A stretch of 33,090 nt of DNA from Syntrophus sp. PtaB.Bin001 (lineage in GTDB: Bacteria; Desulfobacterota; Syntrophia; Syntrophales; Syntrophaceae), in NCBI GenBank assembly GCA_002067815.1, contig MVQR01000002.1:1-33090 (forward strand). Direction: 5' to 3'. The translations under genes were made by a program, and so were the position numbers. Below the pieces are notes generated by a model. The model worked only from the letters and a program-made list of their open reading frames with translations, made no database searches and had not been told where the DNA came from. Positions 5-17,299 of the stretch are shown here, in pieces. Positions within the stretch are counted from its first letter, which is position 1. Each line of letters opens with the position of its first letter.

Positions 5-1612
5 ATGGAAAAAAGTATCGCCGTTGTCGGGGCTGGATATTGGGGAAAGAACCTGGTTCGCAATTTTTCGCAACTCGGAGTTCTAAAGACGGTTTGTGAT
101 GCAGAGCCTCTCACCCGTGAGCAGATTGCGAAAGATTATCCGGAGGTGGAGGTTGCCGGGAATTTCAATTCTGTTCTTGCGGATGCAGACATTCAGGGAG
201 TCGTGATCGCCGCACCGGCAGCGCAGCATTTTCAGCTGACACGGGCGACTTTGCTGGCGGGAAAACACGCCTTTGTGGAAAAGCCCCTTTCGCTGACCTA
301 TGAGGAAGGCGAAGTTTTGGTGCGCCTTTCGGCGGACTGCGGCAGAACCCTCTTTGTGGGACACATTCTGAACTACCATCCGGCGGTCATCCGGCTTAAG
401 GAAATGATCAACGAAGGCAGCATCGGACGGATGCAGTATATCTATGCTCGGCGGCTGAGCCTGGGCAAGATCCGCAGGGAGGAGAACATCCTATGGTCCT
501 TTGCTCCTCATGACATTTCAATAATTCTGGGGCTTGTGGGTGAAGAACCCGTTTATGTCGATTCCGTGGGCAGCAACTTTCTCCATGCCCGGATTGCCGA
601 CGTAACCATGACCAACCTGAAATTCCCTTCCGGGATCGGGGCGCATATCTTTGTGAGCTGGCTTAATCCATTCAAGGAACAGCGCCTGGTTATCGTAGGC
701 AGTGAGGGCATGCTGGTGTTTGATGATACTCTCCCCCGGGAAGAAAAGCTTGTCCTTTATCCCCACACAATCAATTGGAAAGACGGAGCACCGGTGCCAG
801 TCAAGGCGGATAGTCAGGCCATTGATCTCACTTCGGTTTGGGAAGAGCCTCTGAAAGCGGAGTGCCGATCCTTTCTGGCTGCCATTGAGACGGGGCAACC
901 GCCGATTACCTCTGGAGAAGAGGGGCTGCGCGTCTTACGGATTTTAGAGATCAGCCAGCGTTCCCTGGAGGAAAAAGAGAAAGCCGCCGACCAGATATGG
1001 CTAGCGCCGGTTCCGCCGTCTGCCTCTTCCTTCTTTGCCCACCCCTCTGCGGTCATTGATGACGGTGTTTCCATCGGCGAGGGGACGAAGATCTGGCATT
1101 TTTCCCATGTCATGAAAGGGGCCAGTATCGGGGAGAAATGTAACATTGGGCAAAATGTGGTGGTGTCGCCGGAGGTGACCATTGGGAATGGCGTGAAAAT
1201 TCAAAACAATGTATCCGTTTATGAAGGAGTGACCCTGGAGGATGATGTCTTCTGCGGCCCTTCCATGGTCTTTACCAACGTCTATAATCCCCGTTCCCCC
1301 ATTCCCCGGATGAAGGAAGTCAGGTCCACCCTGGTACGAAAGGGCGCCAGCCTTGGGGCCAATTGTACGATCGTATGCGGGAACACCGTAGGCCAATACG
1401 CCTTTGTGGGAGCTGGCGCCGTGGTTAAGAAGGACGTGCCCGATTATGCCATGGTGGCGGGCAACCCGGCAAGGATCAAGGGGTGGATGTGTGTTTGTGG
1501 AAACCGGATTGATTTTCACGGTCATGAAGGAAAGTGTCGGGAGTGTGGGAAAGCTTACCGACTTGAAAAGGATGGCGAAGAGGGAAGCCTGAGTGCTTTT
1601 CCGGTTGAATAA
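5..1612 (+). CDS. Fused Gfo/Idh/MocA sugar dehydrogenase and hexapeptide N-acetyltransferase (WbpB/WlbA + WbpD/WlbB-like)
   Basis: A 535-residue protein with two enzymes in one chain. Residues 1 to about 330 are a Gfo/Idh/MocA oxidoreductase: the nucleotide-binding GAGYWG is at 9-14 and the family EKP motif at 92-94. Residues about 343-490 are a left-handed beta-helix acyltransferase of the WbpD/WlbB type, with isoleucine/valine-glycine hexapeptide repeats, KIWHFSHVM (362-370) and [11 protein letters not shown] near its end. The tail carries Cys496, Cys498, Cys511 and Cys514, which looks like a small zinc site. In the WbpA-B-E-D-I pathway these two activities oxidise C3 of UDP-GlcNAcA and acetylate the 3-amino group after transamination. 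The matching aminotransferase lies two genes downstream. The ATG at 5 fits the family N-terminus, but its ribosome binding site lies outside the window. The substrate is inferred. Confidence 0.88.
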
Positions 1613-1685: not shown

Positions 1686-2678
1686 ATGAACATTGCTGGT
1701 AGTAAAATCCTGGTAATCGGTGGTGCAGGTCTCATCGGTTCTCATGTCGTTGAAGAACTTCTTAAAGAAGATGTTAAAGAAGTTGTCATCTATGATAACT
1801 TCTGTCGAGGTACTCGTGAAAACTTGGATGAAGCCCTGAAAGATTCCCGCTGCAGTATCTATGATGTCGGGGGAGACATCCTCCAGACGGACATCCTTGA
1901 TACCGCCATGAAAGGTGTGGATGCTGTTGTTCACCTTGCTGCCCTGTGGCTTCTCCAGTGCTACGAGTATCCGAGAGCAGCTTTTGATGTGAACATTCGG
2001 GGAACCTTTAATGTTCTTGAAGCCTGCGTGGCCAACGGGATTGAACGGCTGGTATACTCTTCTTCCGCTTCCGTTTACGGGGATGCTCTCACAGACGTCA
2101 TAGCCGAGGATCATCCCTATAACAATTGGACTTTCTACGGCGCCACGAAAATCGCCAGCGAACATATGTTCAAGGCCTATCATCGCCGTTACGGTCTAAA
2201 AGGCGTTGGCCTACGGTATATGAACGTTTATGGAGCGCGCCAGGACTATAAAGGTGCATACATCGCCGTAATGATGAAGATTCTGGATAATCTTGACAAA
2301 GGACTTCCTCCCGTTGTTTATGGAGATGGCAGTCAAGCCTATGATTTCATATATGTCAGCGATGTCGGGCGAGCCAACGTGTGCGCCCTTAAAAGCGAGG
2401 TTCCGTTCGGCTTTTACAATGTCGGGCGAGGCATAAAGACCTCCATCAAAGAGCTAACGGAAATACTCTTGAAAATTACGGCATCGGACATGGATATCCA
2501 ATACGAACCGGCAGGAATGACCTTCGTGACCAACAGGGTTGGCGATCCTGCCGCGGCAGAACGTGATCTGGGTTTCACTTGGAAAGTGGATCTGGAAGAA
2601 GGTTTGCGGCGGCTGGTTGATTGGCGAAAAACGAACATGGAAGCAGTAGAGCAACGGCGAAAGAAAGCCCAAAGTTGA
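1686..2678 (+). CDS. Extended SDR NAD-dependent nucleotide-sugar epimerase/dehydratase
   Basis: A 330-residue extended short-chain dehydrogenase. It shows the Rossmann glycine motif GGAGLIG (12-18), the SSSASVYG strand (125-132) with the catalytic Ser/Thr region, and YGATK (151-155) as the Tyr-x3-Lys pair. Length and motifs fit the GalE/WbpP/RmlB superfamily acting on UDP- or dTDP-sugars in the cytoplasm. The start at 1686 is supported by AGGAAGGG at 1673-1680, five bases upstream. It sits between the dehydrogenase/acetyltransferase fusion and the aminotransferase, yet the known WbpABEDI scheme has no step for such an SDR. It may make a different sugar or change the stereochemistry of the product. 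Whether it is a 4-epimerase, 4,6-dehydratase or reductase cannot be told from sequence reading alone. Confidence 0.85.
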   Translation: MNIAGSKILVIGGAGLIGSHVVEELLKEDVKEVVIYDNFCRGTRENLDEALKDSRCSIYDVGGDILQTDILDTAMKGVDAVVHLAALWLLQCYEYPRAAFDVNIRGTFNVLEACVANGIERLVYSSSASVYGDALTDVIAEDHPYNNWTFYGATKIASEHMFKAYHRRYGLKGVGLRYMNVYGARQDYKGAYIAVMMKILDNLDKGLPPVVYGDGSQAYDFIYVSDVGRANVCALKSEVPFGFYNVGRGIKTSIKELTEILLKITASDMDIQYEPAGMTFVTNRVGDPAAAERDLGFTWKVDLEEGLRRLVDWRKTNMEAVEQRRKKAQS

Positions 2679-2680
2679 TC

Positions 2681-2688
2681 AAGGGGGG
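2681..2688 (+). promoter_or_regulatory. Ribosome binding site that fixes the aminotransferase start
   Basis: AAGGGGGG lies seven bases before ATG 2696. An upstream in-frame ATG at 2621 would overlap the preceding gene by 58 bases and lacks such a site, so the shorter start is preferred. Confidence 0.65.
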
Positions 2689-2695
2689 TGCGAAG

Positions 2696-3832
2696 ATGCA
2701 ACGTTGTTCAGCAGGAAATGAGTTGTCAAGGCAAAAAATCCCTCTCATCAAACCCTACATAACTCAGGAAGTCAAGGACAAGGTCTGCGAAGTCTTGGAA
2801 AGTGGCTACTTGACTGAAGGTCCCGTAACCAAGGAGTTCGAAGAAGCCTTTAGGACCTACGTCGAATGCCGGCACGCCATTGCCGTCACATCCTGCACAA
2901 CCGGTCTGGAGATGGCCCTCCGGGTCATGAACATCGGCCCCGGCGATGAAGTAATCATTCCCGATTACACTTACCCGGCAACAGCCGATGTTGTTGCCAT
3001 CGTTGGCGCTGATACAGTAATCGTTGATGTTTCCAAGGATACCATGTTAATCGATTATGACGCTTTGGAACAGGCCATCACGCCCCGCACAAAAGCGGTT
3101 ATTCCAGTATCCATTTTCGGGAACCCCCTTGATTACGGCAGGCTCAATGCTATCAAAAAGAAGCATGGTATCGCCATAATCGAAGATGCTGCTTGCTCAA
3201 TCGGTGCCGAATACAAAGGGGGCAAAGTAGGAAGTTTCGCGGATATTTCAGTCTTCAGCCATCATCCCCGGAAATTTATCACGACCGGTGAAGGCGGCAT
3301 GATCACCACAAACAATCCGGAATGGGGCGCCTGGATGGATTCTTACAAGCACTTTGGCATGGGCTCCGTAACTGACAGGGAAGGCGTGGTGTTCTCGCGA
3401 ATAGGTACCAATTACAAGCTGAGCAACATCCTTGCCGCCGTTGGTCTGGTTCAGATGCGGCAGATAGACGAACTCTTAAACAAACGGACCGAACTGGCAG
3501 AGAAATACAAAGAGCTCCTTGCGGCCTTAGGTAACGCGCAGATTCCTCAAACGACTGCAGGGGGCAGACATTCTTACCAGTCATTCTGCATCTTTGTTGA
3601 GGATCGTGACCGAATTATGAAAAAAATGCGGGATAACGGCGTAGAGGTACAGATCGGCACGTACGCCCTTCACATGCATCCGGCTTTCGCCGAAAGTTCC
3701 CATATCATTCATCATGGATCTTTCGAGGGCAGCTGCTATGCTTTCGATCATTGCCTGACTCTTCCTCTGTACCATGAACTAACCGAAGACGACCAAAAAT
3801 ATGTTATTGATATGCTTCAGTCGTTTCTATGA
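2696..3832 (+). CDS. DegT/DnrJ/EryC1/StrS PLP-dependent sugar aminotransferase (WbpE/WlbC-like)
   Basis: A 378-residue fold-type I aminotransferase of the sugar-aminotransferase (DegT/DnrJ/EryC1/StrS) family. Visible motifs are the N-terminal GYLTEGPVTKEFE region, EDAACSIGAEYKG with the cofactor-nitrogen-binding Asp164, and HHPRKFITTGEGG with Lys193 as the predicted Schiff-base lysine. Family length is about 360-400 residues, so it is intact. The family moves an amino group from glutamate to a keto-sugar nucleotide. Beside a WbpB/WbpD-like fusion the likely substrate is UDP-3-keto-GlcNAcA, giving the 3-amino sugar (inference). The start at 2696 rests on the strong purine-rich site just upstream. 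Its stop overlaps the next gene start as ATGA, which implies translational coupling. Confidence 0.9.
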   Translation: MQRCSAGNELSRQKIPLIKPYITQEVKDKVCEVLESGYLTEGPVTKEFEEAFRTYVECRHAIAVTSCTTGLEMALRVMNIGPGDEVIIPDYTYPATADVVAIVGADTVIVDVSKDTMLIDYDALEQAITPRTKAVIPVSIFGNPLDYGRLNAIKKKHGIAIIEDAACSIGAEYKGGKVGSFADISVFSHHPRKFITTGEGGMITTNNPEWGAWMDSYKHFGMGSVTDREGVVFSRIGTNYKLSNILAAVGLVQMRQIDELLNKRTELAEKYKELLAALGNAQIPQTTAGGRHSYQSFCIFVEDRDRIMKKMRDNGVEVQIGTYALHMHPAFAESSHIIHHGSFEGSCYAFDHCLTLPLYHELTEDDQKYVIDMLQSFL

Positions 3833-4995
3833 TGAGTGATCGCTATAAATCTGTTTCTACCAAAAAAAATGCGCTCAAGGGCATAGCGCTATTCCTGGTG
3901 ATTCTTGCCGTATTTGCTTTTGGCGTAGGTGTTGGTCACAGGCACTGGCCTCCCTTTGAACAATTAAAACACTTAGATGTTATAAAGAATGTGTTTTCCG
4001 GAAGTTCAACTGCGAAGTCATCTACAGGGGAAGAAGAGCTTCTGCGACATGCCTTTACCGATCCCATAATTGATGGCGAAAAGCTTTTTCCGCCAATTAC
4101 GTCTGTGGATGGCATTTTTAAAGCGAACCAAAGCATCTTTATGGATGTCGGAGATTTTGATGATGCCTACAGGAAGATAAGAATTCTAGGTGCGGATTTC
4201 TTGAGTCTTAATGGCGGGAATACAAAAATTGTGCGGGTTCATTTTGCCCTTGCCGGCAAGGAATATGACGCATATGCATATTATTTGAGAGTGTTATCCA
4301 GCGGGCGAGAAAAAGCTGCCGCCTTGATTATTCCTGGCAGCGGACTCAATCAATCAAACGGTATTTTCAACCGTAACCCTAAAAATTACCACAACGGGAT
4401 AATGGATGCCCTGGAGGGAATGGGGGACATATTTGTCTTCATCAAACCCAACGAGGATATCCTTGCTTTTCATAATGGCCGTAAGAAACTCAATAATGAC
4501 TTCATTGTGAATTATCACTTAAATCATGGCTCTTCCTATTCTGCAAGTTACATAGTGCAGACGCTCGCGATGACAAAGTATTTGAAGAGCCGTTACGAAA
4601 AAACAATCATTGCTGGGCTTTCACAGGGTGGTACTGCGGTTCTTCTGAATGTGCTTCAATCTGAGCCGGACATTGCGATCGTGGCATCAGGCTACAGTGT
4701 AATTAATGAAAGGGCTGACTGGTCAGGTCTCGACCAGATCATTATTCCCGGATTGTATGCCAGTTGGACGGATCACGCCATGCTTGTGCGCAGAATCAGC
4801 AAATCCCGGACGCATTACCTTTTTACTTGGGGCAAACAGGAGACAGGAACTTACAAGATTGAGGCTGAAGAACAGCGTTCCTGCAGAATGTTTCAGAGAC
4901 TGCCGAATGTCAGGTGTGCCATTCACAACGGAGGGCACATCTTTCCTGTTAAAGAAATCAAGGCGTTTCTCATTGAAGAAAAAGGTAAAAAATAA
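3829..4995 (+). CDS. Membrane-anchored alpha/beta-hydrolase-like protein, function unknown
   Basis: A 388-residue protein with one hydrophobic segment at about 17-36 after a basic N-terminus. It is therefore probably anchored in the inner membrane with its main domain in the periplasm, although an uncleaved anchor facing the cytoplasm cannot be excluded. The domain carries IIPGSGLNQSNG (168-178), like an oxyanion-hole loop, GLSQGG (263-268) with Ser265 as a nucleophile-elbow serine, and HNGGHIFP with His370 as the likely catalytic histidine. This spacing fits the alpha/beta-hydrolase fold (esterase or peptidase-like). It overlaps the aminotransferase by four bases and abuts asnB with no gap, so it is part of the operon. 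It could deacylate or trim the glycan. No named family was recognised. Confidence 0.7.
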   Translation: MMSDRYKSVSTKKNALKGIALFLVILAVFAFGVGVGHRHWPPFEQLKHLDVIKNVFSGSSTAKSSTGEEELLRHAFTDPIIDGEKLFPPITSVDGIFKANQSIFMDVGDFDDAYRKIRILGADFLSLNGGNTKIVRVHFALAGKEYDAYAYYLRVLSSGREKAAALIIPGSGLNQSNGIFNRNPKNYHNGIMDALEGMGDIFVFIKPNEDILAFHNGRKKLNNDFIVNYHLNHGSSYSASYIVQTLAMTKYLKSRYEKTIIAGLSQGGTAVLLNVLQSEPDIAIVASGYSVINERADWSGLDQIIIPGLYASWTDHAMLVRRISKSRTHYLFTWGKQETGTYKIEAEEQRSCRMFQRLPNVRCAIHNGGHIFPVKEIKAFLIEEKGKK

Positions 4996-6882
4996 ATGTG
5001 TGGAATCGCAGGTATCTTCAATCTAAACGGTGAACCAGTTTCCCCGGTTATTCTTAGAAAGATGACTGATGTCATTACCCATCGGGGACCTGATGGCGAA
5101 GGTTTCTATACGGACAGATTCATCGGCCTGGGCCATCGGAGACTGGCCATCATAGATTTAACGTCCATGGGCCATCAGCCGATGGCAACAGCCCAAAATC
5201 AACTCATCATCACTTATAACGGCGAGGTCTATAACTTTCAAGAACTACGCACGGAACTGCAGACGCTGGGCCACCAGTTCCATTCCCAGTCGGATACGGA
5301 AGTCGTCCTTCATGCTTACAAGGAATGGGGTGAGAAGTGCCTGGCAAGATTCAATGGGCACTTCACCTTTGCCATATGGGACAGAAATAAGAAGGAATTG
5401 TTTCTTGCCCGGGACCGTTACGGGACCAAACCTCTCTACTACACCTTTGCCGGATCCTGTTTCATTTTTGCCTCGGAACAGAAGGCGATCCTCACTCACC
5501 CGGCAGTGAAAAGAGAAATCGACCTGGAAGCGCTCCTCGAATATTTTACCTTTCAGAATCTCTTTACCGACAAGACCTTGCTAAAAGGCATCAAACTTTT
5601 TCCCTCCGGCTGTTATGCTTATCTTCCCGTTGCCGCGACGAGCCATGAACTGCAACCGACGTGCTATTGGTCCTGGCACTTTTCCGAACCGGAACAGCCC
5701 CTTACGGAAAACGAATATGTCGAGGAACTAGATCGCCTTTTCCGCCAGGCCGTGAATCGCCAGCTGGTCAGTGACGTGGACGTGGGCGCCTATCTCAGCG
5801 GCGGCATGGATTCCGGATCCATTACGGCTATCGCTGCCCGGCAGCTCTCCTACATGAAGACCTTTACCTGTGGTTTTGACCTGCACACCGCGTCAGGGCT
5901 TGAACTGGCGTTCGATGAGCGGGAAAAAGCAGAATACATGTCCTACCTCTTCAAAACGGAGCATTACGAGATGGTCCTCAAGGCCGGAGACATGGAGCGT
6001 GTTCTACCCAAGCTTGCCTGGCATCTTGAAGAACCCCGCGTCGGCCAGAGTTATCCCAATTTTTATGCGGCTCAACTGGCATCAAAGTTCGTCAAAGTTG
6101 TTCTTTCCGGCGGCGGCGGCGATGAACTCTTCGGTGGTTACCCCTGGCGCTATTACAGAGCAGTGGATACCACTGACGATTTTGAACAGTACATAGATAA
6201 ATATTACCTTTACTGGCAGCGTCTCATCGACAACCGTCATGTTAGGGGGATTTTCTCGCCTGTCTGGGATCAGGTGAAACACGTTTGGACTCGTGATATA
6301 TTCCGGGATGTTTTTCTCAAGCACAATCACCAGTTGCAGAAACCGGAAGACTATGTCAACCATTCTCTGACATTTGAGACAAAAACCTTCCTGAAAGGTC
6401 TTTTACTGGTGGAGGATAAACTGAGTATGGCCCACGGCCTCGAGGTGCGATTGCCTTTCCTGGACAACGACCTTGTTGATTTTGCCGTGAAGGTTCCTGT
6501 TAAGCACAAGCTGATGAACCTGATGACTGCCTCACGCATCAATGAAAACGATCCGCGCCCCAAGCAGGATCTTTACTTCCAGCAGCACAGGGATGGAAAG
6601 ATTATCCTCCGTAAGGTCATGGAAAGATACATCCCCGAGGATATCACAAATGGTGTGAAACAGGGATTTTCTGCGCCGGATGCCACGTGGTTTAAAGGCG
6701 AAAGTATTGATTACGTCAAGAAAATAATCTTCAACAATAAATCCCGTATTTACGATTATTTCGACTCAAAAGCCATTCAAGAGCGGGTAAACGAACATCT
6801 TGAAGGAAAGATGAACAGGCGGCTTTTTATCTGGTCACTGCTCAATTTTGAGTGGTGGTGTAAATGTTTTCTCCGGGTGTGA
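4996..6882 (+). CDS. asnB: AsnB-type glutamine-hydrolysing amidotransferase (asparagine synthase family), copy 1
   Basis: A 628-residue two-domain protein. The N-terminal class II glutamine amidotransferase domain starts MCGIAGIF, with Cys2 as nucleophile after removal of Met1. The C-terminal ATP-pyrophosphatase domain carries SGGMDS at 268-273 and a later [14 protein letters not shown] stretch. Both active centres look intact. The family makes asparagine from aspartate, but homologues inside O-antigen loci (for example WbpS) are thought to amidate sugar carboxyls or otherwise modify sugars. Here it is the gene just before the acyltransferase and WbuX/HisH/HisF genes, so a sugar-modifying role is more likely than amino-acid supply (inference). 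The ATG at 4996 directly follows the previous stop and has AAAGGT upstream. Confidence 0.88.
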
Positions 6883-7397
6883 TCCTCAGAAAAATGAAAA
6901 TCCTTGTCGAATTAATACGGCTTTTTGAATATCTGCGGGACGATAAAAAAAAGAGATTTAATCGGGTGCTTCCTTTCGGAGATTATATCGTGGATCGTTG
7001 GGAAAAGGCGCGATATCTCGGCTTTGATGAAGGTTCAAGCATTTATGATAGCGCCCTTGTTTTCGGAGACGTGAAGGTTGGGAAAAACACTTGGATTGGC
7101 CCCTTCACTATCCTTGACGGTTCCGGTGGTCTACTTATAGGGCATAATTGTTCCATTTCCGCAGGTGTTCAGATCTATAGCCACGACAGTGTCAAATGGG
7201 CGATCAGCGGCGGAGCGCATGACTATGAGTATTGCCGGACAACGATAGAAGACAATTGTTATGTCGGTCCGAACACAATTATCGCAAAAGGGGTCGTAAT
7301 AGGCGCAGGCAGTATCGTTGGAGCCAATAGTTATGTGGATAAACCTTGGCCAAAAGGATCGAAAATTGCGGGTAATCCCGCCAAACTGATAGAGTGA
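6864..7397 (+). CDS. Hexapeptide-repeat (left-handed beta-helix) acyltransferase
   Basis: A 177-residue acyltransferase of the LbetaH class. Residues about 57-160 show repeated hexapeptide steps such as [21 protein letters not shown] and [20 protein letters not shown] contains His107, the probable catalytic histidine, and the protein ends in the typical IAGNPAKLI. The family uses acetyl-CoA or a similar donor to acylate a hydroxyl or amine on a sugar nucleotide. The start at 6864 overlaps asnB by 19 bases. ATG 6894 (residue 11) is an alternative that removes the overlap, and neither has a clear ribosome binding site. Its stop overlaps the next gene as GTGA. Position between asnB and wbuX suggests it prepares or finishes the same amidinated or amidated sugar (inference). 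Confidence 0.82.
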
Positions 7398-8575
7398 ACA
7401 TAACCATGTATCAAGGAAAAAATTTAAATAATATAAAAATATGCACTACATGCATTTATGATGCAACCATTCCGGGGATATCGTTTGATGAACAGGGGGT
7501 GTGCAATTACTGCCAGACCGTCAAGAGACTGAAAAAAGAATATGGAACGGGGACTCCCGACGGTGAAAAAAAATTAATGGAAATCATTGATCAGATAAAA
7601 AGGGAGGGGCAGGGCAAAAAGTACGACTGTGTTATCGGAGTCAGCGGGGGGACGGATTCATCCTTCATGGTTGTGAAGGCAATCGAATGGGGCTTGAGAC
7701 CTTTGGCCGCGCATTATGACAATACCTGGAACACGGCCATTGCGACACAAAATATCCGCAAGGTTTTGGCTAAGCTGCATGTTGATCTTTATACTCATGT
7801 TGTTGACAACAAGGAGGCGGATGACATTATCAGGGCCTTCTTCAAAGCAAGCGTGCCGGATCTGGATTGTGCAACAGATATCGCTCTTGCCGAGACGCTT
7901 TACCGGGCGGCAGATAAATACGGAGTGAAGTACATTCTTGAGGGACACTCCTTTGTCGCAGAAGGCATCTCTCCCCTTGGTACGCTCTATATGGATGGAA
8001 AATACATCAAATCGGTTCATCAAATGTTTGGTTCCATTCCCATGAAGACCTATCCGAATATGGATTTTACAGCTTTCATGAAGTGGACCGTGCTTAAACG
8101 AATCAAGAAGATCCGGCCTTTGTGGTACATCGGTTATTCAAAGGAAGCGGCCCAAAAGTATCTTGAAAAGGAATTCGGCTGGCTCTACTATGGCGGACAT
8201 CACTTGGAAAACAGAATTACTGCCTTTCATCACAGTTATTATAATCCGGTGAAATTCGGGATTGACAATCGAAACAACAGCCTTTCGGCAGTCGTTAGGA
8301 TGGGTGTGCTTTCAAGGGAAGAGGCGTTGAAAATTTATAGTGAACCACCCCACATGGAGCAGGAACTTCTGGACTACTTTAAGAAACGTCTAGGTCTTTC
8401 TGACGCGGAATTCGATCAAATCATGAGGCTTCCTTCCAAAACCTATAAAGACTATCCGACCTACAAAAGGCGATTTGAGCGGCTCCGTCCTTTTTTTTAT
8501 GTTCTTGCTAAAGCCAACCTTGTACCGATGAGTTTTTATATCAAGTACACTGCAAAAGACGGTATTCAGAAGTGA
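7394..8575 (+). CDS. wbuX: N-acetyl sugar amidotransferase (WbuX/WbpG/PseA family)
   Basis: A 393-residue protein of the N-acetyl sugar amidotransferase family. The N-terminus has two CxxC pairs (Cys17/Cys20 and Cys37/Cys40), likely binding zinc. They are followed by the PP-loop ATP-pyrophosphatase signature GVSGGTDSS (82-90), which adenylates the acetamido oxygen before nitrogen attack. With ammonia channelled from HisH through HisF, the family converts an acetamido group to acetamidino, as in ManNAc3NAmA (P. aeruginosa WbpG) or FucNAm-type sugars (E. coli Wbu). The two next genes supply exactly those partners. The start is GTG 7394 in a GTGA overlap with the previous stop; ATG 7406 is an alternative. 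The stop again overlaps the next gene as GTGA. Confidence 0.92.
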
Positions 8576-9183
8576 TTGCCATCGTTAACTATGGCCTCGG
8601 TAACCTTGGCTCTATCTTCAACATGCTGCGGAAAATAAGGGTGATGTCTCAAATCACCTCTGATCCTGAGGAAATAGCAAAAGCGCAGAAGATTATCCTT
8701 CCGGGAGTCGGTCATTTTGATCGGGCGATGGAAAGGATCGGTCAATCCGGATTGAGGGCGGTTCTCGATCAAAAGGCTTTAAGAGAAAAAGTTCCCATTC
8801 TCGGTATCTGTCTCGGCATGCAGCTTCTTACGAAGAATAGCGAAGAAGGAGAACTTCCAGGCCTGGGATGGATCCCCGCGAAAACGGTGCGTTTCCGTTT
8901 CCCGGGGGAATCGAACTTGAAAATCCCTCACATGGGATGGAATATGGTGCAACGAGCCACTCCAAGTCTTCTGACCGAGAATTTTGAACCTGAGCAGCGC
9001 TTTTATTTTGTCCATTCCTACCATGCACAGGTAGAGGAAGAAAAATATTCCATTCTGAAGACAGAATATGGTTATTTTTTTGATTCCGCTATTCAAAACG
9101 AAAACATTTTCGGCGTCCAGTTCCATCCAGAGAAAAGCCACCGTTTCGGAATGCGCCTTTTTGAAAACTTTGCAAAACTTTAG
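8572..9183 (+). CDS. hisH: HisH-like glutamine amidotransferase subunit (WbuY/HisH2) for sugar amidination
   Basis: A 203-residue class I (triad) glutamine amidotransferase. Cys80 sits in GICLGMQ, and His185 and Glu187 sit in QFHPEKSH. The N-terminus IVNYGLGNLGSIFNML is characteristic of HisH. In histidine synthesis HisH feeds ammonia to HisF. Placed between wbuX and a diverged HisF, this copy belongs to the acetamidino-forming complex, and no other his gene is present. Translation starts at GTG 8572, whose last two bases open the TGA stop of wbuX (GTGA overlap), suggesting tight translational coupling and matched amounts of the subunits. Length equals ordinary HisH, so the gene is intact. 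Confidence 0.93.
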   Translation: MIAIVNYGLGNLGSIFNMLRKIRVMSQITSDPEEIAKAQKIILPGVGHFDRAMERIGQSGLRAVLDQKALREKVPILGICLGMQLLTKNSEEGELPGLGWIPAKTVRFRFPGESNLKIPHMGWNMVQRATPSLLTENFEPEQRFYFVHSYHAQVEEEKYSILKTEYGYFFDSAIQNENIFGVQFHPEKSHRFGMRLFENFAKL

Positions 9184-9220
9184 AAGATGCTTCCTGACAC
9201 TTCATCTCTAACTGTTATAT

Positions 9221-9985
9221 ATGCTTAAAGTCCGCATCATTCCCTGCCTTCTTCTCCGGGATGAATCCCTCGTTAAAACCGTCCAATTTAAGAAATTCGG
9301 CTACATTGGCGATCCTGCCAACACTTGCCGGATCTTCAATGAACTCGAAGTGGATGAACTGGCGTTTCTGGACATTACGGCAAGTCGGGAAAAACGGAAA
9401 CCGAACTACAAAATCCTTCAGGAAATTGCCGACGAATGTTTCATGCCTCTTTCCTATGGCGGTGGCATCCGTAACTTGCAGGAGGCGGAACGCATTTTCA
9501 ACATCGGCTTTGAAAAGGTTGTCCTGAACACCTATCCCTTCGAGAATCCAGGAATCATTACCACACTTGCCAATGCTTTCGGCAGCCAGAGTGTGATCGT
9601 TGCCATTGATGTCAAAAAAAGTGTTTGGGGTAAATACCAGGCTTACAGCCTTTCCGGTACCGTCAACCAGAAGCGCAATCCGGTGGAGTGGGCGAAAGAG
9701 GTACAAGACCGGGGCGCCGGCGAAATCTTATTGACCGCCATAGATCATGAGGGCACATGGAAGGGATTTGATATCGCACTGACGGCACAGATTGCAGGTT
9801 CTGTCTCGATTCCTGTGATTGCAAACGGCGGAGCGGGCGCATTCCGGCACATCGGCGAGGTGGTTAAAAGCGGACACGCTTCTGCTGTAGCCCTCGGCAG
9901 CATGGTGGTTTATCAAAAACAGGGCATGGGGGTGCTGATAAATTTCCCGGATGAAAAGCAATTAACGTCAGTGATTGAGAGCTGA
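9221..9985 (+). CDS. hisF: HisF-like ammonia-channel subunit (WbuZ/AglZ/HisF2 family) of the sugar amidination complex
   Basis: A 254-residue TIM-barrel protein with clear HisF features: RIIPCL at the start, PLSYGGGIRN (75-84), VAIDVK (126-131), GAGEILLTAID and a late VIANGGAG phosphate-binding loop. At the position of catalytic Asp11 in histidine-pathway HisF (RIIACLD) this protein has Leu11, while the second catalytic aspartate is kept as Asp129. Loss of Asp11 fits the HisF2/WbuZ group, in which the barrel delivers ammonia but does not cyclise imidazole glycerol phosphate. It follows hisH after a 37-base gap without a strong ribosome binding site. It probably docks HisH at one face and passes ammonia to WbuX (inference from the family). 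Confidence 0.92.
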   Translation: MLKVRIIPCLLLRDESLVKTVQFKKFGYIGDPANTCRIFNELEVDELAFLDITASREKRKPNYKILQEIADECFMPLSYGGGIRNLQEAERIFNIGFEKVVLNTYPFENPGIITTLANAFGSQSVIVAIDVKKSVWGKYQAYSLSGTVNQKRNPVEWAKEVQDRGAGEILLTAIDHEGTWKGFDIALTAQIAGSVSIPVIANGGAGAFRHIGEVVKSGHASAVALGSMVVYQKQGMGVLINFPDEKQLTSVIES

Positions 9986-14823: not shown

Positions 14824-15906
14824 ATGGAAATGCATGTTGTAAAACCAAGACAGTGGATATTTGGGTTTATTTTTGCGTTCATTATTATTTGGGCTTTTTC
14901 AGCGTTGTTTGGGGACACGGTAATCACCTATACATGGTCTCCCGACTCTGGGACTTGGATCCGTCCGCCGGGAAGCATTCACAGGCACAGAAGTGAAGGT
15001 TGGGCAACATCATATTTCGGGAAATTGGATGTTCAAGGCATCAACGATATATCTAGGATAAAACTCCCAGCCATCGCCATATGGGGTGATTCCCATGTAG
15101 AAGCATTCCAGGTTGAACAGCAGAAAAAAATGCAAGAAGTACTAGTTGGTTTGTTGAAGGCAAATGGAATTAAGAACATTACGGCTTTTGGGATAGGCCA
15201 GTCCGGAGACTCAGTTGCAGATTACTATTTCAAAATACCACGTTACGAAAAAATATGCTCCACCATTATTGCTCATTACATTATTCTGACCGATTTCAAT
15301 GATGTTTTTCCAAATCAGCCACTTGTTGGACATGCGTCTTTTCAAGCAAATCCCCGGTATCAAATTGTTGACATTAAGGGCAAACCTGACCATTTGCGGA
15401 TCAGAGCATTTTTGAGAAAGTGGGGGCTGGATTTCGTATGGTTGTCAGCAGTAACAGTCATTAAGGACACGAGGCTGAGATTTTCCCCGGGGCCTTGTAA
15501 AGTAAGGTTAAAGAGCAGAGAAGTCGCCCATGACCAAGATCCTGAGAAAGCATTCTCATTCCTCCTGCGTGCGTTGAGAAATCAGACTACAAAGCCTATT
15601 ATTTTTGTTTACTGTCCATACGTACCTGCCATTGATGGTGGGAAAGTAAACTTTAATGATCAAAAGGTGAATATTATTCACGTATTCGCTCGAGAGTGTC
15701 GACGCAACGGAATTGATTTTATTGATTTGACGCAAGATTTTTACAGCTGCTATCGGGAGACAGGAACGTTTCCCCGTGGGTTTATTAATACTCGGCCATC
15801 GGAGGGGCATTTTAATGGCGCCGGTCACCGACTGATAGCAAAAGCAATATACAGAACTGCTTACCTATCCCCGAATGGGGTTTTTGATGATTTTCACACA
15901 AATTGA
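14824..15906 (+). CDS. Membrane-anchored SGNH-hydrolase-like protein, probable partner in glycan O-acylation
   Basis: A 360-residue protein with one hydrophobic segment at about 11-30 and an SGNH-type domain. GDSH at 88-91 holds the presumed nucleophile Ser90, TDFND (156-160) offers the block III asparagine, and GHFNGAGH (328-335) ends with the likely catalytic His335. The order fits the AlgJ/AlgX-like or DHHW-type proteins that finish acetyl transfer onto exported polysaccharides. It overlaps the MBOAT gene by up to 32 bases, the usual arrangement of such pairs. The domain is expected in the periplasm, taking acyl groups from the MBOAT protein (inference). ATG 14824 lacks a good ribosome binding site; ATG 14830 is an alternative. 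The gene is AT-richer than its neighbours. Confidence 0.75.
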   Translation: MEMHVVKPRQWIFGFIFAFIIIWAFSALFGDTVITYTWSPDSGTWIRPPGSIHRHRSEGWATSYFGKLDVQGINDISRIKLPAIAIWGDSHVEAFQVEQQKKMQEVLVGLLKANGIKNITAFGIGQSGDSVADYYFKIPRYEKICSTIIAHYIILTDFNDVFPNQPLVGHASFQANPRYQIVDIKGKPDHLRIRAFLRKWGLDFVWLSAVTVIKDTRLRFSPGPCKVRLKSREVAHDQDPEKAFSFLLRALRNQTTKPIIFVYCPYVPAIDGGKVNFNDQKVNIIHVFARECRRNGIDFIDLTQDFYSCYRETGTFPRGFINTRPSEGHFNGAGHRLIAKAIYRTAYLSPNGVFDDFHTN

Positions 15907-17299
15907 GTTTTTGCTGTTTTTCCTGCTACTTCTAGGTTGTCTGAGTGTAATCCGGGAAAACAGATACCGCAAGATCATTCTGCTGGCAGCCAGCTATTAC
16001 TTCTATGCATACTGGAATTGGCGGTTTCTAGGCCTTTTGTTTGTATCAACCTTTTCTGACTATCAGATTGGAAGGTACCTGTCAAAACTATCTACTCCCA
16101 GGCAACGCATATTGTTGATTGCTGCAAGTTTAGTGATCAACTTGAGCATCCTTTTTAGCTTCAAATATTGTAACTTTTTCGTGTCATCACTACAACATCT
16201 GCTCATACCTATTGGAATTCATGTGGGTACTTTATCTGTCATCCTGCCTCTTGGTATATCTTTTTACACTTTCAGAACCTTGAGCTACACAATTGACGTA
16301 TATCGCCGCAGAATAGAGCCATGCACAAGTTTGCTTGACTATGCATTATTCGTAAGTTTTTTCCCCACAATGGTTGCTGGTCCGATCGTAAGGGCTTCTG
16401 ATCTTCTACCACAATTTATGAACTCCGTTTCTTTAAGCTTTCGGACTATTTTGCTTGGCTTTAGATCATTCGTTATAGGATGTTTCTTGAAGGTTTTTGT
16501 TGCTGATGGAATCGCAACTTTCACCGATTATGTTTTTGGAAATGTCGCCGTTTTTAATTCGCTCACTATTTGGTTAGCTGCGATTGGCTATTCGATGCAA
16601 CTCTACTGTGATTTTGCCGGGTACTCGATGATGGCGATTGGCGTGGCAAAAGCAATCGGGTATGAAATCCCCGAGAATTTTAATTTCCCATATCTAAGTA
16701 AGAATATAGCAGAATTTTGGAGACGGTGGCATATTACATTATCTAAGTGGATTAGAGACTATGTATACATAAGTCTGGGAGGCAGTAGAAACGGTAATAT
16801 CCGAACTTCTATTAATATTTTGCTTACTATGAGTTTATGCGGGTTATGGCATGGAGCAGCCTGGACTTTTGTTTTTTGGGGATTGTTCCATGGATTGGCC
16901 TTGGTGCTTTATCATATCTGGACCGCAGTGAAGAACCACACAGAGACGAAAGGAGATGTGCAATCTAGTCTGTTTTGCGGTTTCTTTTGCCGAACAGCTA
17001 CTTTGTTAACCGTTGTTGTAGGCTGGGTCTTTTTTCGCGCTGACGGTTTTGATCGCGCTCTTGTCCTGTTCGGCAAGATGTTTTACCCGTCAGCTGGTTT
17101 TGGTTGGTATCATCCTTTTGTCTTGTTTGTCCTTTTTTCCTTTGCAATAATTCAGTTTGCAGAATTATCCCAGTTGGGAGCATTTCATCGGCTTCAATTG
17201 TCGGCTTGGTACACGCCATCTGTCATCTTCACCATGATTTGGCTTTGCATAGTATTCCATCCAAGAGAATTTACTCCCTTCATATACTCAAAATTCTGA
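15875..17299 (+). CDS. MBOAT family O-acyltransferase (AlgI/DltB-like)
   Basis: A 474-residue polytopic membrane protein with roughly 10-12 hydrophobic segments. It carries the MBOAT signatures PLGISFYTFRTLSY (125-138), FFPTMVAGPIVR (162-173), FWRRWHITLSKW (281-292) and CGLWHGAAWTFVFWG with the near-invariant His326. The family moves acetyl groups across or within the membrane to an acceptor, as AlgI does for alginate. With the SGNH-like protein upstream it should O-acetylate the surface glycan. ATG 15887 (MIFTQIEFLLFF) looks like the normal family N-terminus and has GGGG six bases upstream, so the true protein may be four residues shorter than the start given. Low GC sets this gene apart, for example about 37% in the 60 bases from 16741. 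Confidence 0.92.
   Translation: MGFLMIFTQIEFLLFFLLLLGCLSVIRENRYRKIILLAASYYFYAYWNWRFLGLLFVSTFSDYQIGRYLSKLSTPRQRILLIAASLVINLSILFSFKYCNFFVSSLQHLLIPIGIHVGTLSVILPLGISFYTFRTLSYTIDVYRRRIEPCTSLLDYALFVSFFPTMVAGPIVRASDLLPQFMNSVSLSFRTILLGFRSFVIGCFLKVFVADGIATFTDYVFGNVAVFNSLTIWLAAIGYSMQLYCDFAGYSMMAIGVAKAIGYEIPENFNFPYLSKNIAEFWRRWHITLSKWIRDYVYISLGGSRNGNIRTSINILLTMSLCGLWHGAAWTFVFWGLFHGLALVLYHIWTAVKNHTETKGDVQSSLFCGFFCRTATLLTVVVGWVFFRADGFDRALVLFGKMFYPSAGFGWYHPFVLFVLFSFAIIQFAELSQLGAFHRLQLSAWYTPSVIFTMIWLCIVFHPREFTPFIYSKF

Follow-up and report, generated by a model that had tools for sequence, protein, structure and literature searches.

A hydrolase-type gene inside a sugar cassette

The DNA analysed here (the window, 33,090 nucleotides of a Syntrophus sp. 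contig) opens with five genes on the forward strand. The first (5..1612) encodes a Gfo/Idh/MocA dehydrogenase fused to a WlbB-like hexapeptide acetyltransferase, the second (1686..2678) an SDR nucleotide-sugar epimerase/dehydratase, and the third (2621..3832, the ATG at 2696 being its likelier start) a DegT/WbpE-type sugar aminotransferase. They are followed by the gene under study (3829..4995), which is intact, begins with ATG and encodes an anchored alpha/beta-hydrolase-type protein of 388 residues, and by a gene for an AsnB-type amidotransferase (AsnB1, WbpS-like; 4996..6882). The four neighbours of the hydrolase are 67%, 84%, 77% and 78% identical, in that order, to proteins encoded at L003, the locus that also carries the hydrolase ortholog. 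At the upstream junction the aminotransferase stop codon (TGA, 3830-3832) shares bases with the hydrolase start in an ATGA sequence, a 4-bp overlap, and at the downstream junction the TAA (4993-4995) adjoins the AsnB ATG at 4996 with no gap. The initial annotation had described the gene as locked into an operon by these junctions, and that description was borne out.

The acetyltransferase part of the fusion (residues 345-520) was of the WlbB/WbpD type, matching PDB entry 3mqg with an E value of 1.1e-68; this entry, WlbB, is listed as a lipopolysaccharide biosynthesis acetyltransferase. The aminotransferase matched WbpE (3nu7) at 3.8e-45 and scored better against other sugar aminotransferases. 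The best NCBIfam model for AsnB1 was TIGR03108, at 464.1 bits and thus below its cut-off of 816.9; the protein is therefore termed WbpS-like and not a TIGR03108 member, and it exceeded the general asparagine synthase cut-off (457 vs. 267.1 bits). Judged from sequence, the five-gene block probably represents a Wbp-type 2,3-diacetamido-uronamide cassette, the product of which would be a 2,3-diacetamido-hexuronamide built by the MocA-acetyltransferase fusion (MocA-LbH), the SDR, DegT and AsnB.

The Wbp/WbpS (Wbp/Vim) uronamide pathway, in which WbpB is the MocA-type dehydrogenase, is represented by Porphyromonas gingivalis PGN_1234, P. aeruginosa WbpS and E. coli O121 WbqG. In the available portion of the study by Veith et al. 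(PMC7468200), WbpS is assigned to the TIGR03108 family, this TIGR03108-like protein is needed in P. gingivalis to convert the Wbp sugar to the uronamide, and asnB (wbpS) lies downstream of wbpE and wzx. In common with the window, the pathway has the MocA-type dehydrogenase class, a DegT aminotransferase, a WlbB/WbpD-type acetyltransferase, an AsnB of the TIGR03108 kind and, according to that study, the location of asnB near wbpE (PMC7468200). The window differs in the fusion of the MocA dehydrogenase to the acetyltransferase and in the anchored hydrolase that follows DegT and precedes AsnB; the main text of that paper does not use the word "hydrolase" (PMC7468200).

The same enzyme classes also occur in cluster B of the Sphingomonas cell-associated polysaccharide, where the available portion of the report (PMC11340318) names an exosortase-type amidotransferase, a PLP aminotransferase, a WxcM acetyltransferase, an MviM dehydrogenase and an SDR, together with WbuX, HisF2 and HisH. 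No alpha/beta hydrolase is among the insertion-hit genes listed in that portion (PMC11340318). In the window, genes for acetamidino modification (WbuX, HisH and AglZ/HisF2) were found at 7394-9985, with scores above the NCBIfam cut-offs.

Anchor, candidate active site and predicted fold

A Kyte-Doolittle profile of the hydrolase placed a membrane helix, the N-terminal anchor, at codons 18-36 (3880..3936). The best 19-residue mean was 2.60, at residue 18, and no second membrane helix was evident, the mean being at most 1.17 past residue 70. The net charge is +4 on the N-terminal side of the helix and +1 on the C-terminal side, and this small difference suggests an N-in/C-out topology with a periplasmic domain. 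The helix is followed by a juxtamembrane segment, HRHWPPFEQLKHLD (3937..3978, codons 37-50); this segment and the last part of the helix recur in an isochorismatase-domain protein described below.

The candidate nucleophile, Ser265 (4621..4623), lies in the sequence GLSQGG directly after predicted strand 5. It occupies a G-x-S-x-G nucleophile elbow (G263-L-S265-Q-G267), and G-x-S-Q-G is present in both the window protein and its ortholog. His370 (4936..4938, in NGGHIFP), directly after predicted strand 8, is the candidate base, and Glu338 (4840..4842, in WGKQE), directly after predicted strand 7, is by its position the candidate acid. Asp is commoner than Glu as the catalytic acid in this fold. 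All three residues are conserved in the single ortholog. Also invariant there is PGSG (codons 169-172, 4333..4344), a possible oxyanion-hole loop after strand 3 of a low-confidence model. The anchor, the GLSQGG sequence with Ser265 and the late His370 had been pointed out in the initial annotation and were all present; the catalytic acid, for which it had recommended inspection of a predicted structure, has a candidate in Glu338, subject to the low confidence of that model.

The hydrolase scored below the curated Pfam cut-offs for both FSH1 (13.5 bits, cut-off 21) and Esterase (12.9 bits, cut-off 22), and therefore no named subfamily is claimed. No family was matched in NCBIfam (E <= 0.1) or PHROGs, phmmer against all PDB chains gave no match at E <= 1, CsaC included, and a PDB search with the hydrolase profile returned chance matches only. 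The ortholog had no Pfam match either. A profile made from the two sequences (A1) matched an ordinary Hydrolase_4 protein (L005) at the nucleophile-elbow region. At the curated cut-offs, the gene indeed stands outside the families usual for O-antigen loci, as had been noted earlier, and no match to a housekeeping hydrolase family was found.

The XrtA/PEP-CTERM hydrolases (TIGR03101 hydr2_PEP and TIGR03100) are alpha/beta hydrolases of exopolysaccharide loci with an AsnB-type amidotransferase. The window protein did not fall within TIGR03101, no TIGR03101 member scored above the cut-off among 155 genomes of the class, and exosortase (PF09721) had no match in the genome from which the window derives, which is 93% complete. 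The genome with the hydrolase ortholog encodes an exosortase (G079:C178:12456-13217, in L162; PF09721, 184 bits) about 25 kb from that ortholog on the same contig, and the other four genomes with the cassette gave no PF09721 match.

The full-length structural model was unusable (pLDDT 37). The model of the domain, residues 118-388, had a mean pLDDT of 46, with values of 60-78 across most of the final 90 residues, and at this mean confidence it displayed the order strand-Ser-helix ... strand-Glu-helix-strand-His-helix that the alpha/beta-hydrolase fold requires. The top Foldseek rows for the domain model were mostly alpha/beta-hydrolase esterases and peptidases (best E 2.3e-3, with no match below 1e-3). 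The best VIA-align 2 match had a Z score of 7.4 and an rmsd of 3.7 over 131, and according to the tool a Z below 8 may reflect merely a common arrangement. Most of the VIA-align 2 matches were again alpha/beta hydrolases, and a few were other alpha/beta folds such as GTPases. An alpha/beta-hydrolase fold is likely from these models.

The structural matches raise the possibility that the protein is an acyltransferase built on an alpha/beta-hydrolase scaffold, in which Ser265 would be acylated by a donor and hand the acyl group on to the sugar. According to the available portion of its description (PMC7501274), CsaC (6yuv) is such an enzyme, an O-acetyltransferase of the Neisseria meningitidis A capsule locus that has the same kind of fold and a Ser-Asp-His triad. 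CsaC chains were within the Foldseek top 20 (6yuv at rank 10, E 0.03), and the MBOAT and SGNH-like proteins of the window could bring acyl groups across the membrane for a transferase of this type. However, these Foldseek scores are weak, esterases rank equal or higher, and the PDB sequence search did not recover CsaC. CsaC uses acetyl-CoA and Asp, whereas the window hydrolase has a candidate Glu, a membrane anchor and no detectable sequence similarity to it, and its domain would lie in the periplasm, away from acetyl-CoA. Moreover, tblastn matched neither MBOAT nor SGNH in the searched region of the ortholog locus. A CsaC-like transferase is considered unlikely.

Ortholog, distribution and cassettes without the hydrolase

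A single ortholog of the hydrolase was found, in a MAG from Lake Pavin (G079; L003:10001-11173), with 68% identity overall and 73% over residues 118-388. No other was detected in searches that covered 149 relatives, 155 class genomes, a 395-genome phylum sample, GTDB species contigs, viral contigs, plasmids and phages. Both bearers are MAG-like draft genomes. A weak match in the phylum sample (L006) was judged from its own sequence to be due to chance, and a plasmid match (E 0.07) was dropped, as it fell within a giant gene that is annotated as an SDR and neighbours a non-ribosomal peptide synthetase. The divergence of the two hydrolase genes (dN 0.20, dS 0.69, NG86) is typical of purifying selection, and this codon divergence, together with the intact ortholog in the same gene order, excludes a chance open reading frame.

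When 27 window genes were compared by tblastn (E <= 1e-5) with the ortholog locus (L053, L003 and L054, about 43 kb of G079:C178), the two loci had five colinear genes in common: the MocA-acetyltransferase fusion, SDR, DegT, the hydrolase and AsnB1. Outside this block the matches were at paralogue level (at most 43%, e.g. 41% for Epimerase_2), and the edges of the block are sharp. WbuX, HisH, HisF2, SGNH and MBOAT had no match in the searched region. Their absence weakens a link with MBOAT/SGNH and favours the cassette sugar as the substrate. Of the two neighbourhood associations for which the initial annotation had proposed a survey, that with AsnB held, as AsnB adjoins the hydrolase in both loci, and that with WbuX failed, WbuX being present in one of the two. 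The hydrolase is tied to the Wbp/AsnB cassette and not to MBOAT/SGNH.

The same comparison bears on the proposal, made in the initial annotation, that the enzyme is a de-O-acetylase counteracting the MBOAT/SGNH pair. The window does encode an MBOAT and a GDSL/SGNH-like protein (14824-17299), and the hydrolase is esterase-like in its sub-threshold Pfam scores and in the Foldseek and VIA-align results. However, neither partner was matched in L003, L053, L054 or in other AsnB loci, and within the window the hydrolase belongs to the DegT/AsnB cassette and is 9.8 kb away from MBOAT/SGNH. This role is very unlikely.

AsnB1 orthologs with more than 72% identity were present in 5 of the 155 class genomes. 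SDR, DegT and AsnB1 occur in order in all five, and the MocA gene was seen in four; in the fifth (G012) the contig ends just upstream. The hydrolase is absent from three of the five cassettes, where the gaps between DegT and AsnB1 are 11-12, 2 and 4 bp. These hydrolase-free cassettes identify the gene as an accessory insert, and they speak against a required step of quality control, a role that had been suggested initially for the hydrolase. The accessory distribution and the membrane anchoring would also fit a hydrolase that recycles lipid intermediates or precursors and leaves no lasting mark on the polymer. Searches of Pfam, NCBIfam and PDB sequences, however, linked the protein to no enzyme family of this kind, and a recycling function is decidedly improbable.

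One of the AsnB1 orthologs (L095:10655-12532, G008) starts MSAISGIF in place of MCGIAGIF and has NGALYN instead of NGEVYN. It lacks the Cys that acts as glutaminase nucleophile but is otherwise intact (73% identity), so its nitrogen may come from ammonia or from some other source.

At the DNA level, the two hydrolase bearers share 76-77% identity over the 3' end of the DegT gene (codons 241-367), vs. 63-66% between either of them and G012, and in both bearers DegT ends in MLQSFL followed by ATGA. This closer 3' end and the shared MLQSFL/ATGA junction would fit a transfer in which the DegT end and the hydrolase moved as one piece. In the 5' half of DegT, G079 is about equally close to G012 and to the genome of the window. 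The SDR and AsnB sequences did not make the two bearers nearest relatives, and the concatenated tree did not unite them (support of 77 for the alternative), and so gain, loss and transfer can be neither separated nor counted. The hydrolase showed lower synonymous divergence; its G+C content is also lower (43-45%) and may be a partial cause, and therefore the insertion was not dated from divergence.

A shared anchor beside AsnB and the proposed role

In a protein search of the class, the hydrolase anchor unexpectedly matched the N-terminus of a protein from another genome of the order, G153 (47% over 32 residues, E 2.6e-4). This protein (L048:305-1255) has an isochorismatase domain (E 8.1e-8), and its gene lies directly after an AsnB gene, of which the 3' end (75 codons; PF00733, 1.9e-8) is present at the contig edge. 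The contig carries glycan genes, as judged by reading the translations. The first 75 residues of the isochorismatase-domain protein scored 89 against the window anchor, and the next best score was 40 among 100 ORFs with an N-terminal helix from AsnB loci. None of 5000 block shuffles reached 89, and the same result (0/5000) was obtained for the part after the helix. The anchor motif is G-[VI]-G-V-G-x(3)-W-P-P-[FY].

The anchor search of the class gave matches at E <= 1 in 77 of 155 genomes, and below 0.015 only in the genome of the window, G079 and G153. A subset of the weaker matches was inspected and consisted of chance frames and ordinary helices that lack the motif. The searches of 155 class, 390 phylum-sample and 389 other-class genomes yielded no additional carrier, and plasmids gave nothing convincing with the anchor peptide (E >= 4). 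The two anchors are homologous, so the same anchor is combined with hydrolases of two unrelated types, each next to an AsnB gene; with three proteins in all, this amounts to a lead and falls short of a rule. A survey covered 74 AsnB ORFs in 69 loci, drawn from the matches of the AsnB1 search of the class, and yielded 116 same-strand neighbours of at least 150 residues within 250 bp, and 15 of these had a single N-terminal hydrophobic segment; several looked by eye like glycosyltransferases and are hence artefacts. No general pattern of anchored hydrolases beside AsnB was seen among the 74 ORFs and no enrichment is claimed; the AsnB neighbour in L048 was not among the flagged rows.

The position of both anchored protein kinds next to an AsnB gene, and their descent from unrelated nucleophilic-hydrolase types, would suit an enzyme that, as amidase or transamidase, attacks the primary carboxamide placed on the uronic acid by AsnB, either removing it or exchanging it for another amine. 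The alpha/beta-hydrolase and isochorismatase superfamilies each include amidases. However, there are three anchored proteins in all, AsnB1 is kept in the hydrolase-free cassettes, and no general rule emerged across the surveyed AsnB ORFs, which leaves such an activity quite improbable. That the shared anchor carries interchangeable, unrelated nucleophilic hydrolases beside AsnB, all acting on the AsnB-made carboxamide, is likewise a long shot. As carboxamide editing, it would involve amide formation in the cytoplasm followed by stripping in the periplasm; as transamidation, the carboxamide would serve as an activated acyl group and another amine would be attached to the exported polysaccharide. 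If proteins with this anchor act at a common site, one step in the making of amidated glycans may be carried out by hydrolases of two unrelated types. No description of such a shared step in amidated bacterial glycan synthesis was found in searches of the open-licence literature.

The reading tentatively preferred, and given slightly less than an even chance, is that of a tailoring acyl hydrolase which faces the periplasm, acts on the cassette sugar and is optional. The Ser265-Glu338-His370 triad would form an acyl-enzyme, and the hydrolase would remove an acyl group, bound as ester or amide, from an exported glycan unit containing the cassette sugar. The bond cut could be an O-acyl ester, an N-acyl linkage or the C6 carboxamide. 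The step would be optional, the slot between DegT and AsnB1 being filled in some cassettes and empty in others. Along with the model-predicted fold, this reading takes in a presumed periplasmic side, a putative sugar, a probable acyl chemistry and a likely substrate, the last of these chosen because of gene order alone. A glycan lyase-like trimming enzyme, also suggested initially, found no support. A rare orphan enzyme would thus plug into a sugar cassette that is itself well defined, and the natural cassettes with and without it offer a clean comparison of polysaccharides.

Other proteins with N-terminal hydrophobic segments were noticed near AsnB genes. Within the window, the GDSL/SGNH-like protein (14824-15906) has such a segment, and its gene begins 137 bp after the second AsnB gene and overlaps the MBOAT gene; it is another anchored hydrolase beside an AsnB. 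In G032, a protein of 259 residues with an N-terminal hydrophobic helix (L068:2406-3185) is encoded upstream of an AsnB gene, from which it is separated by about 390 bp and with which it shares the strand; it scored 21.4 bits for a transglutaminase core, just under the threshold of 23. Furthermore, in three genomes the gene immediately upstream of AsnB codes for a calcineurin-like phosphoesterase with a hydrophobic N-terminal segment (L136:2488-3921, L145:2543-4039 and L148:1337-2770).
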